A stretch of 62,675 nucleotides of DNA from Levilactobacillus senmaizukei DSM 21775 = NBRC 103853 (GTDB taxonomy: Bacteria > Bacillota > Bacilli > Lactobacillales > Lactobacillaceae): assembly GCF_001592085.1 (NCBI RefSeq), contig NZ_BCWD01000013.1:1-62675 (forward strand), read 5' to 3'. Numbering within the stretch: the first letter of the stretch is position 1; each line of letters opens with the position of its first letter. Below are positions 749 through 60,432 of this stretch, one piece after another. Under the pieces are notes generated by a model that saw nothing but the letters and a program-made list of their open reading frames with translations, searched no databases and was not told the origin of the DNA. The position numbers and the translations under genes were made by a program.

Positions 749-2077
749 CTATCCCACACCCTTGGGAATTGCGACCAGCAATTGGCCCCAATGTAGCTTT
801 AATTGTAATGAGCTGGTCGCCGACTGCGGCAAGCTAGCGCGGACGTTGGCAAAACTCATGACACCAACGTCCGTCACCACTCGATGGTGGCCATCGATTT
901 TAGCATCCTTAGATACTGAAAACGTCAACTGTAGCTGAATCTGTTTGGCCGATTCCTTGAGACTTAATGTAACCACCGCAGGATCCATCTTACTGAGGGC
1001 TGGGACCATTCCCGGCAAAACCTGATCAACAACCTGGCTAATCTGTTTTAAGGCCGCCACCGTCGCCGTGAGGGGCTCTGGAACCTGAATGAACAGTTGG
1101 ACCCCCTGTTCCCGAGCCAAAAGATAATTATGATAGAGCTGAAACTTTAATCGGGTCCCAGGAATATTGGCCAAGTCTTCGAGGGTTAACTCTGCAGCAT
1201 TACTGGTAGTCCAGCCCGACCGAATGTCGATGTAGAGTTGTCGAAAACCCGCGTAATCTTCATCCTCCAGGTAACCCCCTAGTCCCAACAGCATATTCTG
1301 ATAGTCATGATTAAATTTGCGAATGGCCTGTACCTGCCGGTTAAGTTCATTGGTGTATTGCTCCCGAAAGGCCTGTTGCTGTCCTTGAAGTAAGGTATGT
1401 TCCTGTTGCAAATGGGTCTGCATTAACATATAGGTACTCAACGATAAACCAATTAACAAGATACCTGCGATTCCGGCCAAAAAGAACAGATACTGCTCCG
1501 AATTTGCCAGGCTCTGTAGCGAGTATTCAAAGAGAATGTAAACCACCGCCAGGATGGACATGAATCCCAAGAATAGGAATTCCATGGAACTGCCTAAGAT
1601 ATCTTGGATTAAGTTTTCCATTGGTGCTCGCGTCAGCCAAATACCCACCGCCAGCAAACTAAAGACCGCCGTGTCCAATATCATTTCAATAATTGTGCCC
1701 GTTAGACTGGCTGCAAAAACCGGACCCGTTAGGTGAATCATCCCCGCCAGAATCACCATATCAATGAATTCCGTCAATAGATAGGCCAAAATCGACACGT
1801 CAATAAAGGATGGAATGTATTGCCACCGATGATGACCACCCAACCACCCCAACTCGATACCGAGCAGGACAATGATCGAAAACGCCCCAAGAACGGCACT
1901 TTTCGTAAAGGGATTCACGATATCAACAAACGTGAAAATCCCGGCCAGCAAGGCACAATAGAGTAAAAAGTGTTTTTGTGGCCGGATCTGAGGAAACCAG
2001 TAATATTGAAAATAGACAAACCAAAAGACCAGGAAGAAGTCCGAGATATAAAAACTGATGGGACTGACTGTAATCAC
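749..2077 (-). CDS. HPK10-type sensor kinase with phosphoacceptor His but degenerate ATPase domain
   Basis: A 442-residue AgrC/PlnB-like membrane sensor. Residues about 7-218 are six or seven hydrophobic segments, then a coiled linker, then the H-box with FNHDYQN (His257, codon CAT). The C-terminal region aligns with the ATPase domain of its neighbour but lacks the catalytic boxes: the N-box DNAIEA is replaced by DQVLPG (351-356) and no GxG-containing G-box remains near residues 398-415. It should accept a phosphate but not bind ATP. The GTG start follows AGGTGA, which overlaps the stop of the upstream kinase gene, so the two are translationally coupled. It is the last gene of the operon. Family assignment is secure; loss of ATP binding is inferred from missing motifs. 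Confidence 0.85.
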   Translation of the reverse strand: MITVSPISFYISDFFLVFWFVYFQYYWFPQIRPQKHFLLYCALLAGIFTFVDIVNPFTKSAVLGAFSIIVLLGIELGWLGGHHRWQYIPSFIDVSILAYLLTEFIDMVILAGMIHLTGPVFAASLTGTIIEMILDTAVFSLLAVGIWLTRAPMENLIQDILGSSMEFLFLGFMSILAVVYILFEYSLQSLANSEQYLFFLAGIAGILLIGLSLSTYMLMQTHLQQEHTLLQGQQQAFREQYTNELNRQVQAIRKFNHDYQNMLLGLGGYLEDEDYAGFRQLYIDIRSGWTTSNAAELTLEDLANIPGTRLKFQLYHNYLLAREQGVQLFIQVPEPLTATVAALKQISQVVDQVLPGMVPALSKMDPAVVTLSLKESAKQIQLQLTFSVSKDAKIDGHHRVVTDVGVMSFANVRASLPQSATSSLQLKLHWGQLLVAIPKGVG

Positions 2078-2081
2078 GTTA

Positions 2082-3398
2082 TCACCTGCCTGGTTTGGTC
2101 AAAATAACTGTAAAGTAAAGCATCCCCCGCTTATAGACCACCTGCAGCGAGGCGTTATCGGTTTGATCAATAATTTCATGGACGGAGCTCAATCCTAAAC
2201 CATGACCGCCACCCTTGGTGGTGTATCCGGCTTCCATGAAGTGACTCATCTTACGGGGCGTATCGGCCGGCACCGGATTAGCCACCGCCAGTTCAACGGC
2301 GCCGGAATAGTCCAGAACCGCACAATAGATTTCCGGTTGAGACTGACCCACACAAGCTTCAATCGCATTGTCCAACAGGACCCCCACGATTCGCAGCAAG
2401 CGCACACTTTCCATCGGCAGCACCGCAACTTTATCGGGAACCTCCAGTCTAAAAGCAATCCCATGGTTCTGCGCCGCCAACATCTTCTGAAATAACAGAC
2501 TCTTCAGCGCCGGATCACTCAACTGGTGCAACCCATCCGCTTCAATCCCGGCCCGCAGGCTCGTCGCTTGCCACCGCGAATTTAACGTTTCGTAATAAGC
2601 CGCCAAGCCGTCATAGTCTTCGGCATCCAGATAGTCGCCCAACTTGAGCATTTGTTTTTGATACGTCTGCTTGAACTCTCGAATGGCGCGAACCTGGTTC
2701 GAAATTCGCCGGTCATACCGGGTTTGCAGCAGATTCTCCTGAAACTTGGCCCGCACGTGTTGCCGATCAAAGAAGCTCTGTAGGAAGAAAAACAGACTTG
2801 CACTAATCAGTAACACCATGACTAATTCAATACTTAGAGCAAAGGTCAACATGGCATGGGTAATCTTTAATCGGTGAATCATCATCGATGATACTTGTGC
2901 AAGGATGACTAGACTCGTCAGCAGTGCCATCACGGTCCACTGTTCCTTCCGACTAAACGACAGTCGTTCCAGATTCCCGGGTTGGATCCGCATCCCGGAC
3001 ACCGCCAACGAGATGAGCGAATAAATCAATAACTGAAAGATTAACCGGCCTGCGACAACTAATGGTTGCTCACTCCCGGCAACCCCAATCAGTTCGACAA
3101 TCACTTGACGGACCACATCATTAACCAACACCACCACTAGATATATCACAATGGTCGCGTTCACGAAGATCAGACTCAGCTTAGGACGATGCCGAATCAA
3201 ATAAACCAAGGCACTGAGTGGTGGAAAAATCAGCGTCCATGGTTGGCCGAGTAGCGCTGGAATTAAGCCCCAGCCAATCCACTTCAACGGTAGCTTCCAG
3301 TTCTGTGGACGAATAACCCCCACCCACAAGGTAATAAACCACTGCATCGTGACCGCCAGCACCAAATTAACCCAGAAACGGTAATCTAAGAAATGCAT
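2082..3398 (-). CDS. HPK10-type sensor kinase with intact ATPase domain but no phosphoacceptor His
   Basis: A 438-residue paralogue of the downstream kinase, with about six membrane segments in residues 1-210. Its H-box region reads FKQTYQK: the phosphoacceptor position is Gln244 (CAG at 2669-2667), and the following Asp and Asn are also changed. The ATPase domain is complete: N-box LLDNAIEA (Asn344) and G-box GGGHGLGL (396-403). I chose the ATG at 3398 because AGGTGA lies five bases ahead of it. A GTG at 3407 directly abuts the regulator's stop but would place the ribosome site inside the gene. The protein should bind ATP but cannot autophosphorylate at the usual histidine. Confidence 0.85.
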   Translation of the reverse strand: MHFLDYRFWVNLVLAVTMQWFITLWVGVIRPQNWKLPLKWIGWGLIPALLGQPWTLIFPPLSALVYLIRHRPKLSLIFVNATIVIYLVVVLVNDVVRQVIVELIGVAGSEQPLVVAGRLIFQLLIYSLISLAVSGMRIQPGNLERLSFSRKEQWTVMALLTSLVILAQVSSMMIHRLKITHAMLTFALSIELVMVLLISASLFFFLQSFFDRQHVRAKFQENLLQTRYDRRISNQVRAIREFKQTYQKQMLKLGDYLDAEDYDGLAAYYETLNSRWQATSLRAGIEADGLHQLSDPALKSLLFQKMLAAQNHGIAFRLEVPDKVAVLPMESVRLLRIVGVLLDNAIEACVGQSQPEIYCAVLDYSGAVELAVANPVPADTPRKMSHFMEAGYTTKGGGHGLGLSSVHEIIDQTDNASLQVVYKRGMLYFTVILTKPGR

Positions 3399-3407
3399 GC
3401 GGATCAC

Positions 3408-4169
3408 CTAGCCCTTCAAATGCTTCTGTACCAACGTTTTCACCTCATGAAACCGGCGGGTGGCTACGTCCGTTTCGTCACCATTCGGAAAGACCAGACG
3501 GCGAGTCGTCGCATCGATCCCACTGACATTGTTAAGGTTCACCAAGAAACTCTTATCCGTACGATACAGCTCGGGATACTGGTCAGCGATATCCTTCAGA
3601 AAACCAGGAAACTCCACTAATTGATTGACCGCATGAACAGTCACTTTATGGGGGGACTCAGCCGTCGCCACGAAGTAAACATCTCCCATCGGCAGGCTGA
3701 ACTTACGGCCGCCGATCGTATAACTGAAAAGATTTTCCGTATTGCCTAAGTAATTGGTATACCGTTGATAGCCATAGTCGACATTTTCTCGCAGCTTTTG
3801 GTCAATCTGGGCCCGTCCCAAGTCCTTGACGACAAAGTCCATGGGTTCCACCTTGCGCTCAAACGTCAGTAGCGCCATTTCCGAGTGAGTCGTCACGAAG
3901 ACAATCTCCGCAAACCCGAGGTGTTGCCGAATCTTTATCGCCGTCTCCAACCCTGTCGTCTGCTCCCCAGGAAACTCGATGTCGAGGAAAAATAGCGCGT
4001 ACTCCGGTATTGCTTCTTCCAAGTGGTCCAAAAGTTCCCGTGGACTCGGTGTGGCCAATCGCACCTGCATATCATAATCGTTAATCATAATGTAGCGCTC
4101 GATCACGTCACGATAATGGGTAAGCTGTTCAACGTTATCTTCACATAAATAAACGGCCAGCACCGACAT
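3408..4169 (-). CDS. LytTR-family response regulator (AgrA/PlnC-like)
   Basis: A cytoplasmic two-component regulator of 253 residues. The N-terminal receiver domain has an acidic patch (CEDN) and the phosphoacceptor Asp63 in FFLDIEF. The C-terminal LytTR DNA-binding domain spans about residues 140-250 (ending KTLVQKHLKG). It is first in an operon with two sensor kinases; its TAG stop directly precedes the next gene. The ATG at 4169 is preferred over the adjacent GTG at 4172 because of spacing from AAAGGGG. AgrA and PlnC relatives bind direct-repeat half sites and usually answer a peptide pheromone; no precursor gene is evident here. Confidence 0.88.
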   Translation of the reverse strand: MSVLAVYLCEDNVEQLTHYRDVIERYIMINDYDMQVRLATPSPRELLDHLEEAIPEYALFFLDIEFPGEQTTGLETAIKIRQHLGFAEIVFVTTHSEMALLTFERKVEPMDFVVKDLGRAQIDQKLRENVDYGYQRYTNYLGNTENLFSYTIGGRKFSLPMGDVYFVATAESPHKVTVHAVNQLVEFPGFLKDIADQYPELYRTDKSFLVNLNNVSGIDATTRRLVFPNGDETDVATRRFHEVKTLVQKHLKG

Positions 4170-4212
4170 CACACCCCTTTAACAAATTTATCATTAAATC
4201 TATTCACCCACT

Positions 4213-4241
4213 AATGTAACCTGAATTTTGTTTGGTTGCAA
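4213..4241 (-). promoter_or_regulatory. Promoter of the response-regulator/kinase operon
   Basis: On the minus strand, TTGCAA (4241-4236), a 17-base spacer and TACATT (4218-4213) lie about 45 bases upstream of the regulator start. No clear LytTR box was found here. Confidence 0.5.
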
Positions 4242-4242
4242 T

Positions 4243-4268
4243 AAAAAAGAGCCATCCGCAAATGGTCC
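4243..4268 (-). terminator. Terminator upstream of the operon promoter
   Basis: On the minus strand, GGACCAT and ATGGCTC pair (one wobble, one mismatch) around TTGCGG and are followed by six T. It would end a transcript coming from the 4269-4611 gap. Confidence 0.5.
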
Positions 4269-4611
4269 TTTCTCACGTGGATTATTTAATTACTACTGCT
4301 GGCTATTTAGCACTCCCCCAAGCCCCAAACTAGTCGTTATCCCTTAGGTCTTCCAACAACAATCACTTACTCTTCAGCTCACTGGCTACGAACGATTCAA
4401 ACCTAAGAAGGACGAACACTGACACACTGTCAGGCCAACTATTCATTAAAAAACGTGGGACGCCAACTCAAAGGTCGACCGATACAGTGACTCATTGAGT
4501 AGCAAAATCAGTTGCCGTAAAACTGACCCCTTCCAACTGTTATTACTTTACCATGAAATCCCCTTATCGCTCGGTAAGTGGCAAAAACGTCAGTATTTGC
4601 ACGTTAATGCA
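4269..4611. other. Gene-poor gap bounded by two minus-strand terminators
   Basis: No gene is recognised. Because terminators lie at both ends, something may be transcribed leftward here. The longest candidate is a 27-codon minus-strand frame (4363-4446, starting MNSWPD) with no ribosome site. A short inverted repeat TCAGTT/AACTGA lies at 4507-4525. A pheromone gene would be expected near such a kinase operon, but I cannot support one. Confidence 0.4.
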
Positions 4612-4640: not shown

Positions 4641-5030
4641 TAACGAATAAGTCAGATACCCACCCAAAACCAGTGGACCCAAGAATACCAGACCAAGGTC
4701 AACCACGCCTCGCCAGTACCACTTAAGTGGCGTCTTGGCGGCCGCTTGGACCCGTTTGGGCCTCAACATCTGCTCGTTCAAACCACTGGGGGCAACCGCC
4801 TTCCGCCGCCGGCGAATGGTTGGCGCCTGCACCTGACGGCCATCCACCAAGACGGCCCATTTCGCAAACGGAAAGGCCAACCAACTGAGGATAAAATACC
4901 CATCTGCCATCGTAAACCCGGTCACCAGGACCCACCGGCCATAATCCAAATGGCCCAGTAGCGACAACATGGCCACCCAGAACAAGCCAATCACAACTTG
5001 GTGACGCCAATAAGCAAACGTCATGTGCAT
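4629..5030 (-). CDS. Small membrane protein of unknown function
   Basis: 133 residues, not recognised. Two or three hydrophobic segments lie at about residues 10-30 and 33-60, and one at 106-128. They flank a basic loop with RRRRK and PKRVQAAAK. The ATG at 5030 follows AAGGAGG with seven bases between, an excellent start. It is transcribed divergently from greA and sits upstream of the two-component operon but has its own terminator, so it is not clearly co-transcribed. A sensing accessory role is possible, but nothing in the sequence shows it. Confidence 0.6.
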   Translation of the reverse strand: MHMTFAYWRHQVVIGLFWVAMLSLLGHLDYGRWVLVTGFTMADGYFILSWLAFPFAKWAVLVDGRQVQAPTIRRRRKAVAPSGLNEQMLRPKRVQAAAKTPLKWYWRGVVDLGLVFLGPLVLGGYLTYSLRHN

Positions 5031-5104
5031 AGCGATCCCTCCTTGATCTCAACGGCTGACTGTGTAAAATGAAGTTATTAATGATGTGTAAGCGAGGTGG
5101 AATT

Positions 5105-5593
5105 ATGGCAGACTCACGGGACTTCAATCCCATTACTGCAGCGGGATATCACGATTTGGAAACCAAAATTGCTGTGTTAGAAGCCGACCGACCCGAAAAG
5201 ATCGCTATTCTGGCGGAGGCCAGAGCCCACGGCGACCTCTCGGAGAATGCCGAATATTCGGCAGCCAAACGAGATCTACGCCACTTGGAAAGCCAACTCC
5301 GATTCTTCAACAAACAACTCCAGTATGCCAAGGTCGTTAATCCTAAAGCGGATACCACCGTTGAGCTCGGCAAATGGGTCACCGTACGCTTTCTAGACGA
5401 CAATGACACGGCAACGTATCAACTCGTGGGGACCGCGGAGGCCGATCTGGACGCGGGGAAAATTACCCGCGTGTCGCCTTTAGGCAAAGCCCTAATGGGG
5501 CATCGGCCTAACGATCACGTCACGATCGTGGCCCCCAACGCCAGTTATGACGTTGAAATAATCGCAGTCGCACTAACATCCCCCCACAACTAA
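5105..5593 (+). CDS. greA: Transcription elongation factor GreA-family protein
   Basis: GreA rescues backtracked RNA polymerase by stimulating cleavage of the nascent RNA through the secondary channel. The 162-residue length is typical. The N-terminal coiled coil carries the conserved tip HGDLSENAEYSAAK with its acidic residues, and the C-terminal half has the FKBP-like fold region (SPLGKALMGHRPNDHV). I chose the ATG at 5105 because GAGGTGG lies just upstream; an in-frame ATG at 5069 lacks a ribosome site. Lactobacilli often carry more than one greA-like gene, so this could be a paralogue rather than the housekeeping copy. Confidence 0.9.
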   Translation: MADSRDFNPITAAGYHDLETKIAVLEADRPEKIAILAEARAHGDLSENAEYSAAKRDLRHLESQLRFFNKQLQYAKVVNPKADTTVELGKWVTVRFLDDNDTATYQLVGTAEADLDAGKITRVSPLGKALMGHRPNDHVTIVAPNASYDVEIIAVALTSPHN

Positions 5594-5617
5594 TTTCAGT
5601 ATACCGAGAACTAAAAT

Positions 5618-5667
5618 TAAAAACCCGACCAAACGCTGTGAACCACCACGTTTGATCGGATTTTTTA
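5618..5667. terminator. Bidirectional terminator between greA and tetR
   Basis: ACCCGACCAAACG pairs with CGTTTGATCGGAT, with A and T runs on either side. It serves convergent greA and the TetR gene. Confidence 0.75.
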
Positions 5668-5671
5668 ATTT

Positions 5672-6259
5672 CTACTGCTTAACCGAGAAAACCGGTAACA
5701 AGATTTCATCGACCATGGCGGTTTGTGCCGCTAGGGTCAGTTCCCGCCGACTAAAAATTTCATTTAATAGAAGAATTCCCGGTAGGTTAACGACCCGTTC
5801 CGGCCACCTTGCCTGACTAATTTCGCCGCGCGCCGCGGCGTGGTCCAGAATCGGCTGCACATAACTGGCAAGTGCATTGTCATTATTCAGCCGGTCCAAG
5901 ATTTGATCGAACTTGACTTGCTTTAGTCGATCGCTCAGCAGGCCACGGAAGGTCTCCCCTTTGAGAGTATCCAAGACACTGGCCAATTGGCCAAAGAGAT
6001 CTAATAGATCTCCCCGAAAGGTTCCCGTATCCGGTACCTGATAGCTCACCAGGTTACCAAACTTACGAATCGTCGCAATCACTAAGTGGGCCTTATCGGG
6101 CCACCGTCGATACAAAACGGTCTTAGTTGTAGCGGCTCCCGCGGCTACGCCCTCAATGGTTAGCGCTTGATAGCCCTGAGCTTGTAATTGGTCCCAGGCC
6201 ACCTTCAAGATGGCCGCTTCTAGGGCGGCTCCTCGCCGACGTGTTTTCTTCTCTGACAT
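5672..6259 (-). CDS. TetR-family repressor of the adjacent DHA2 exporter
   Basis: 195 residues. The N-terminal helix-turn-helix spans about residues 10-58 (TIEGVAAGAATTKTVLYRRW), followed by a ligand-binding domain of the TetR_C type. It is divergent from the exporter gene at 6355. The shared intergenic region holds a perfect 16-base palindrome plus a third half site, so it very likely represses both genes until a drug-like ligand binds. The ligand is not visible from sequence. Confidence 0.88.
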   Translation of the reverse strand: MSEKKTRRRGAALEAAILKVAWDQLQAQGYQALTIEGVAAGAATTKTVLYRRWPDKAHLVIATIRKFGNLVSYQVPDTGTFRGDLLDLFGQLASVLDTLKGETFRGLLSDRLKQVKFDQILDRLNNDNALASYVQPILDHAAARGEISQARWPERVVNLPGILLLNEIFSRRELTLAAQTAMVDEILLPVFSVKQ

Positions 6260-60230: not shown

Positions 60231-60256
60231 CTAAGTGCATAGGATAAATCAGAAGC

Positions 60257-60400
60257 TGTTAGGTGAGGCTCCTATACGGAAAATGCTACTACTCAGAAAC
60301 GTCGAGAAACGCCAATGAGTCAACTGGACAGGTCAAAGTAAGGCCTGTTCTAATGTAGCTGTTAGCAATTAACTACGCCGTATAGTGCTAAAACTCAACG
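60257..60400 (+). promoter_or_regulatory. M-box (ykoK) magnesium riboswitch
   Basis: The element has the highly conserved M-box blocks: TTAGGTGAGGCTCCTATACGG at the 5' side, CAGAAACGTCGAGAAACG, CCAATGAGTCAAC, and the 3' side GCCGTATAGTGCTAAAACTC, which pairs with the 5' side. M-boxes fold on Mg2+ and switch off Mg2+ uptake genes. Downstream on this strand there is no transporter gene before the convergent symporter, only a 30-codon frame and structured sequence. Confidence 0.92.
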
Positions 60401-60432
60401 ATTGGCTAAGATAGTTCACGATTTTTAATTGT

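Follow-up and report, generated by a model that had tools for sequence, protein, structure and literature searches.

Neighbouring membrane kinases of Levilactobacillus as probable ATP-binding and histidine-bearing halves of one HPK10 kinase

The stretch analysed here (the window, 62,675 nucleotides) is one entire contig (G000:C13) of Levilactobacillus senmaizukei DSM 21775, and near its left end a minus-strand gene row encodes a LytTR response regulator followed by two membrane proteins, HK-A and HK-B, that resemble the HPK10 (AgrC-type) histidine kinases. HK-A and HK-B very probably constitute one histidine kinase in two halves, a membrane heterodimer of an ATP-binding subunit and a histidine-bearing subunit that drives a single LytTR regulator. 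Direct support for a split kinase comes from the complementary losses in the two proteins, the conservation of these losses, purifying selection, gene order and the finding of no second HPK10 ATPase in the genome, and from the sequences we further infer the heterodimer, the direction of phosphate flow and a phosphatase role of HK-B. The customary picture of a membrane histidine kinase is a homodimer, from which a genus-wide pair departs when each partner lacks the other's half.

Complementary losses and their conservation

The H-box of HK-A reads EFKQTYQKQ, with Gln244 where the phosphoacceptor His is expected, while its N-box (LLDNAIEA) and G-box (GGGHGLGL) are complete. The H-box of HK-B, KFNHDYQNM, retains His257, and the protein has neither an N-box nor any G-box-like stretch. 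Translation and alignment thus bear out both motif assignments of the original prediction, which had been made from the DNA sequence alone. Family searches divide the proteins in the same way: HK-A matches Pfam HATPase_c_5 (E 2.3e-10), whereas HK-B falls below every Pfam family cut-off, with a weak SPOB_a match at the H-box (E 0.025), and matches NCBIfam AgrC (E 2.8e-13). At E 0.01, an ATPase family was matched by 23/23 A rows and 0/24 B rows. Both proteins have the HPK10/AgrC-type layout, in which DHp and GHKL domains come after a polytopic membrane part, as judged from structural models and AgrC fold matches, but an HDYxN H-box, an N-box and a G-box do not occur together in either, HK-A lacking the first and HK-B the other two. 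Each is half a member of this kinase class, and the phosphoacceptor and the ATP site lie on different, co-encoded proteins, the arrangement of a split kinase. The prediction had also called the two kinases paralogues in one operon; they are neighbours and paralogous, but distant (21-22% identical across about 290-300 residues). Their sister relation has weak support (61-78), and a single duplication likely lies behind both.

Among 58 relatives searched, 35 belong to Levilactobacillus, and the complementary pair was found side by side in 34 of these 35, which answers the prediction's call for a check across species; the exception, G006, is a genome 72% complete. The closest named relative of the source is Levilactobacillus tangyuanensis, with 93% identity in HK-B. 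An alignment of 34 A and 41 B proteins was built from the 34 genomes, seven of which have two B genes. FxHDYQN is present in 41/41 B rows, and 0/41 have an N-box or G-box where one would be expected, so that no B protein has regained an ATP site, an outcome the prediction had named as one that would count against it. Three B rows have the letters NNA after the H-box, and at the N-box place these read VDKTLPR, IDETLPR and VDETLPA. The A rows keep LLDNAxE[AS] (34/34) and HG[LQ]GL (34/34); at the His site they have Gln in 24, Arg in 5 and His in 5 (n=34), and the Asp following that site and the Asn four residues further are absent from all 34.

A and B are neighbours in 34/34 genomes having them, and in 33/34 the first B gene either overlaps A or is separated from it by 1-4 bases. 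In G025 the frame of the first B gene is broken near its start, leaving two frames near the N-terminus, and the second B is intact (L084:6434-7754). One A gene with two tandem B genes occurs in seven genomes (L083-L089: G005, G025, G013, G014, G004, G022 and G023), both B copies with HDYQN and without an N-box, so that a single catalytic subunit might pair with either of two His subunits. In G015, an insertion of ~1.35 kb interrupts the response regulator gene and both kinase genes are intact (L090:7620-9732). In L. brevis CD0817, ~2 kb separates the regulator from HK-A (L067:4646-6672), and a frame within it is one that we take to be transposase-like.

When the B profile was run against 397 family genomes, with up to four candidates scored per genome, the best copy reached E <=1e-186 in each of the 25 genus genomes listed, and the best match outside the genus, among the matches listed, was an intact kinase (L120) at E 5e-26. 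His, N-box and G-box were all kept in 22/22 HPK10 kinases from 19 other Lactobacillales genomes, picked from the stronger profile and homology matches.

Selection, genomic isolation and alternative explanations

Median ratios of nonsynonymous to synonymous substitution (dN/dS), taken from 13 genome pairs after removal of comparisons with saturated dS, were 0.044, 0.015 (from 9 pairs) and 0.037 for the membrane, DHp and ATPase parts of HK-A, and 0.039, 0.024 and 0.046 for the membrane, DHp and ATPase-like parts of HK-B. Purifying selection on both halves is strong, and the low value in the ATPase-like domain of HK-B indicates that this domain is maintained despite its missing ATP site. In a structural model of HK-B, with a mean predicted local distance difference test score (pLDDT) of 67.7, the best fold match is AgrC, followed by other kinases and also by Spo0B; the model of HK-A (mean pLDDT 61.5) matches the AgrC ATPase domain. 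The ATPase-like domain of HK-B is thus predicted to keep the AgrC fold with its pocket gone.

In the source genome, a search with PF14501 returned HK-A and two kinases of another class, with the H-box SHELRTP, and HK-A and HK-B used as queries at E 0.001 retrieved only each other. With these searches no second HPK10 ATPase besides HK-A was found in the genome, and therefore no other HPK10 kinase able to supply either half. A LytTR search gave three frames, of which only the regulator of the operon is long enough to hold a receiver (256 codons, vs 187 and 158). The acid pair, Asp, Thr and Lys of its receiver are kept in 30/30 rows, some species being represented twice.

The most economical account of these sequences would be a heterodimer in which HK-A binds ATP and phosphorylates His257 of HK-B in trans, and from HK-B the phosphate moves on to the Asp of the operon's LytTR regulator. 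The HDxxN motif of HK-B would probably also serve to dephosphorylate the regulator. By analogy with the streptococcal Fas system, a conserved non-coding RNA adjacent to the operon may be a target of the regulator, which is the weakest step of the scheme.

Several points weigh against this heterodimer. Five of the 34 A rows have His at the site (G004, FKHTY; G011, G015, G018 and G024, FTHNY), and in these species A could in principle also be phosphorylated. Because the five rows occupy two separate places of the A tree, the His was regained or kept more than once. This is the sole result counting against a strictly obligate division. The original prediction had proposed an obligate heterodimer: the heterodimer gains support from the complementary losses and from Fas, while the word obligate is strained by these rows, and a return of the His in A, which the prediction had said would tell against it, is seen for the His itself but not for its accompanying Asp and Asn. 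Furthermore, both single-chain models are of moderate quality, the regulator may be phosphorylated by another kinase or by a small phosphodonor, and the literature searched yielded no biochemical work on the genus of this pair.

The alternative that survives best, itself improbable, makes HK-B a stand-alone phosphotransferase or phosphatase, a homodimer like Spo0B, with HK-A as a separate modulating sensor and the phosphate coming from elsewhere. It draws on the fold match to Spo0B, the weak SPOB_a match and the retained HDxxN, termed a phosphatase motif in PMC3591291; against these stand the strong constraint on the ATP site of HK-A, besides which no HPK10 ATPase was found in the genome, the adjacency of the genes wherever they occur (34/34) and the heterodimeric precedent of Fas. 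A shade less credible is the proposal that HK-A autophosphorylates at some unusual residue and feeds the regulator, with HK-B as an accessory. The five His-bearing A rows speak for it, but the adjoining Asp and Asn are lost in every A row and HDYQN is invariant in every B row. We consider it very unlikely that both proteins are pseudokinases working by binding or scaffolding, without phosphate transfer; although an essential half is missing from each, the halves kept in 34/34 genomes are precisely complementary and the regulator has kept its receiver residues. That both genes are decaying remnants, as the loss of motifs in each might suggest, can practically be dismissed, given dN/dS medians of 0.015-0.046, conservation, and open frames in 34/34 A and in every B except one (G025), and the decay of one gene that the prediction had allowed for as a refutation is seen in neither.

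The gene row and its neighbouring RNA

Features of the locus are collected in Table 1. The DNA directly upstream of the putative promoter is non-coding and conserved across the genus; this block is a candidate small RNA (sRNA) that may belong to the kinase system. Double changes occur at 9/20 predicted pairs of this RNA (28 sequences). The 15-mer inside it, TTGGGGGAGTGCTAA, is present in 34/35 genus genomes, twice in 21 of them, and 0 times in a reversed control. In 20 second copies examined, the 15-mer lies inside another conserved RNA, on the opposite strand, with its complement in a hairpin loop. This second RNA was found in 33/35 genus genomes, beside a gene that is presumably DegV-like. 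In the source genome it occupies G000:C11:59197-59354 (L167) and has 14 of the 15 letters, so that TTGGGGGAGTGCTAA and TTAGCACTCCCCCAA are complementary at 14/15 positions. The two RNAs, complementary where each is best conserved, are a possible sRNA-sRNA or sRNA-leader pair. The full duplex energy of both (-84.0) is no better than the shuffled mean (-83.6, n=100), and therefore the conserved 15-mer is all that argues for pairing. Neither RNA had a match at a meaningful score in Rfam. Since a regulatory RNA is also the output of Fas, the upstream RNA may, by that analogy, be a lead to what the regulator controls.

Table 1 Features of the kinase locus in the window
Feature	Position	Strand	Basis
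HK-B, 442 aa: polytopic in the membrane, with the phosphoacceptor His in its DHp and no ATP site in its ATPase-like domain	749..2077	-	
VVDQVLPG at the N-box place of HK-B	1010..1033	-	no N-box there in 41/41 B rows
His257 codon CAT, HK-B H-box FNHDYQN	1307..1309	-	His in 41/41 B rows
HK-A, 438 aa: polytopic in the membrane, with no phosphoacceptor His in its DHp and an intact ATPase domain of the HPK10 type	2082..3398	-	
HK-A G-box GGGHGLGL	2190..2213	-	alignment
HK-A N-box LLDNAIEA, residues 341-348	2355..2378	-	kept in 34/34 A rows
Gln244 codon CAG at the HK-A phosphoacceptor site	2667..2669	-	
LytTR/AgrA-type response regulator, 254 aa, first gene of the operon	3408..4172	-	family searches
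Likely operon promoter TTGCAA-N17-TACATT	4213..4241	-	22-locus alignment, by eye
Genus-conserved non-coding block, candidate sRNA (outer limits approximate)	4243..4527	-	22-locus alignment
Hairpin and T-run ending the non-coding block	4243-4268	-	
15-mer TTGGGGGAGTGCTAA inside the non-coding block	4307-4321	-	

A gene for a peptide pheromone was sought and the candidates were rejected. AgrB (PF04647) and ComC (PF03047) had no match in the genome, and among open reading frames with strong ribosome sites within 1 kb on either side no well-initiated small gene was common to the 22 loci, recurring small frames being common to near-identical species only; short peptides can escape searches of both kinds. 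Elsewhere in the window, an M-box magnesium riboswitch (Rfam RF00380, 140 bits) lies at 60248-60413 (+).

Split kinases of streptococci and other known systems

According to a 2025 report (PMC12675982), FasB and FasC of group A Streptococcus form a comparable heterodimer. His246 of FasC is needed, whereas FasC can do without its ATPase domain and FasB without its membrane part; two-hybrid assays gave FasB/FasC heterodimers and no homodimers; FasA is phosphorylated at Asp60, and the authors allow for phosphorylation of FasB at H284 (PMC12675982). The original prediction knew of no characterised AgrC/PlnB-type system divided in this way, a remark that this report overtakes. A search of the literature, with subscription journals mostly outside its reach, gave no earlier report of the pair in Levilactobacillus.

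Split kinases were also sought in 197 genomes of the genus of G037, presumably Streptococcus from the genus size and the Fas numbering, with the B profile and a profile of five streptococcal His-only kinases, and 38 regions were chosen from the matches and examined. One locus, L219, fits the published Fas numbering exactly, with a FasB of 448 aa having H241 and H284, a FasC of 427 aa having His246, and a FasA having Asp60. In this FasB (4675-6021) the H-box site holds Ser, and in three related loci it holds Asn, Ile and Ser; H241 and H284, the FasB histidines that the 2025 report considers, are therefore not the canonical His. The FasC of L219 has no G-box. These complementary losses in Fas-numbered proteins sharpen the published Fas model.

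Altogether, 22 loci in 20 streptococcal genomes have at least one kinase without the His but with N- and G-box, and at least one with HD..N but without a full G-box (22/22 in each case), a count that is not a frequency, because the loci were picked by match to a His-only profile. Many of these His kinases, FasC-like ones included, retain the N-box. Two of the loci, L224 and L225, are weaker cases, since their His kinases still have a G-box in altered form; in L224, moreover, a distance of 4.5 kb containing two frames of opposite direction separates the two kinases. L215-L217 additionally have two kinases each without His and G-box. In the four-kinase gene rows of these three loci, the HPK10-like His subunit is a protein of just 296 residues that stops after the DHp and has no ATPase domain (L215:5096-5986, L216:4992-5882 and L217:4755-5645). 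L223 has a His-only kinase and no catalytic partner among frames of at least 180 residues. The kinases of the remaining 15 regions, part of them classed column by column, look ordinary, and tandem kinases need not be split: L199 has four, each of them intact.

Two kinase trees, with 76 and 74 members, place the Levilactobacillus pair among intact kinases of Lactobacillaceae and the split kinases of streptococci among intact streptococcal ones. The approximately unbiased (AU) test, which is weakened by the long branches, rejects all split kinases of the 74-row tree as one clade (p-AU 0.00025, or 2.5e-4), as well as the joining of A with A (p 1.9e-173) and of B with B (p 1.7e-7) across both groups. 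With that caveat, a shared split ancestry is rejected, and the Levilactobacillus split apparently evolved independently of the streptococcal one. Whether the division of HPK10 kinases into ATP and His subunits is a general design, evolved at least twice in Lactobacillales and expanded in streptococci to operons of up to four kinases, the 296-residue His subunit without an ATPase domain among them, is a proposal whose chances we judge to be about even. If true, one catalytic subunit of such a kinase array could serve several His sensors, or several catalytic subunits could serve one, and signals could be combined through the choice of heterodimer partner.

AgrC of Staphylococcus aureus is of the same class and is the best structural match for both halves, but carries both sites on one protein and is a homodimer. 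Its subunits reportedly phosphorylate each other in trans, and its H-box and G-box mutants are said to complement in trans. Spo0B resembles HK-B in carrying its His on a DHp and in having an ATPase-like domain that is dead; unlike HK-B, it is soluble, receives its phosphate from a response regulator as part of a relay and has no ATP subunit beside it.

Separate proteins for the His and ATP functions are also found in the split CheA of Rhodobacter sphaeroides, CheA3/CheA4, neither of which autophosphorylates alone (PMC3591291), and in Hik36/Hik43 of Synechocystis (PMC7656254). Unlike the Levilactobacillus pair, the split CheA is of the CheA type, and its His-bearing protein is wholly without a kinase domain. 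PMC3591291 predicts that split kinases are ultrasensitive when the free His subunit acts as the phosphatase, and HK-B keeps the HDxxN motif named in it. This pair from food bacteria would offer a natural system for the study of heterodimer-only signalling, of cis and trans phosphorylation and of the predicted ultrasensitivity.

The closest likeness is to FasBCAX. Both systems have, in one operon, two polytopic HPK10-like kinases with complementary sites and one LytTR/ComE-type regulator, and beside it a separate gene for a non-coding RNA (FasX in the streptococcal case, a candidate in Levilactobacillus). They differ in that the regulator gene is first in Levilactobacillus and last in fas, that the non-coding element of Levilactobacillus lies upstream of the operon, that HK-B has neither N-box nor G-box whereas FasC keeps the N-box, and that common descent of the split halves is rejected by the tree tests. 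The idea of a split HPK10 kinase therefore has a precedent in FasB/FasC, and the Levilactobacillus pair is a new and apparently separately arisen variant of this kind.
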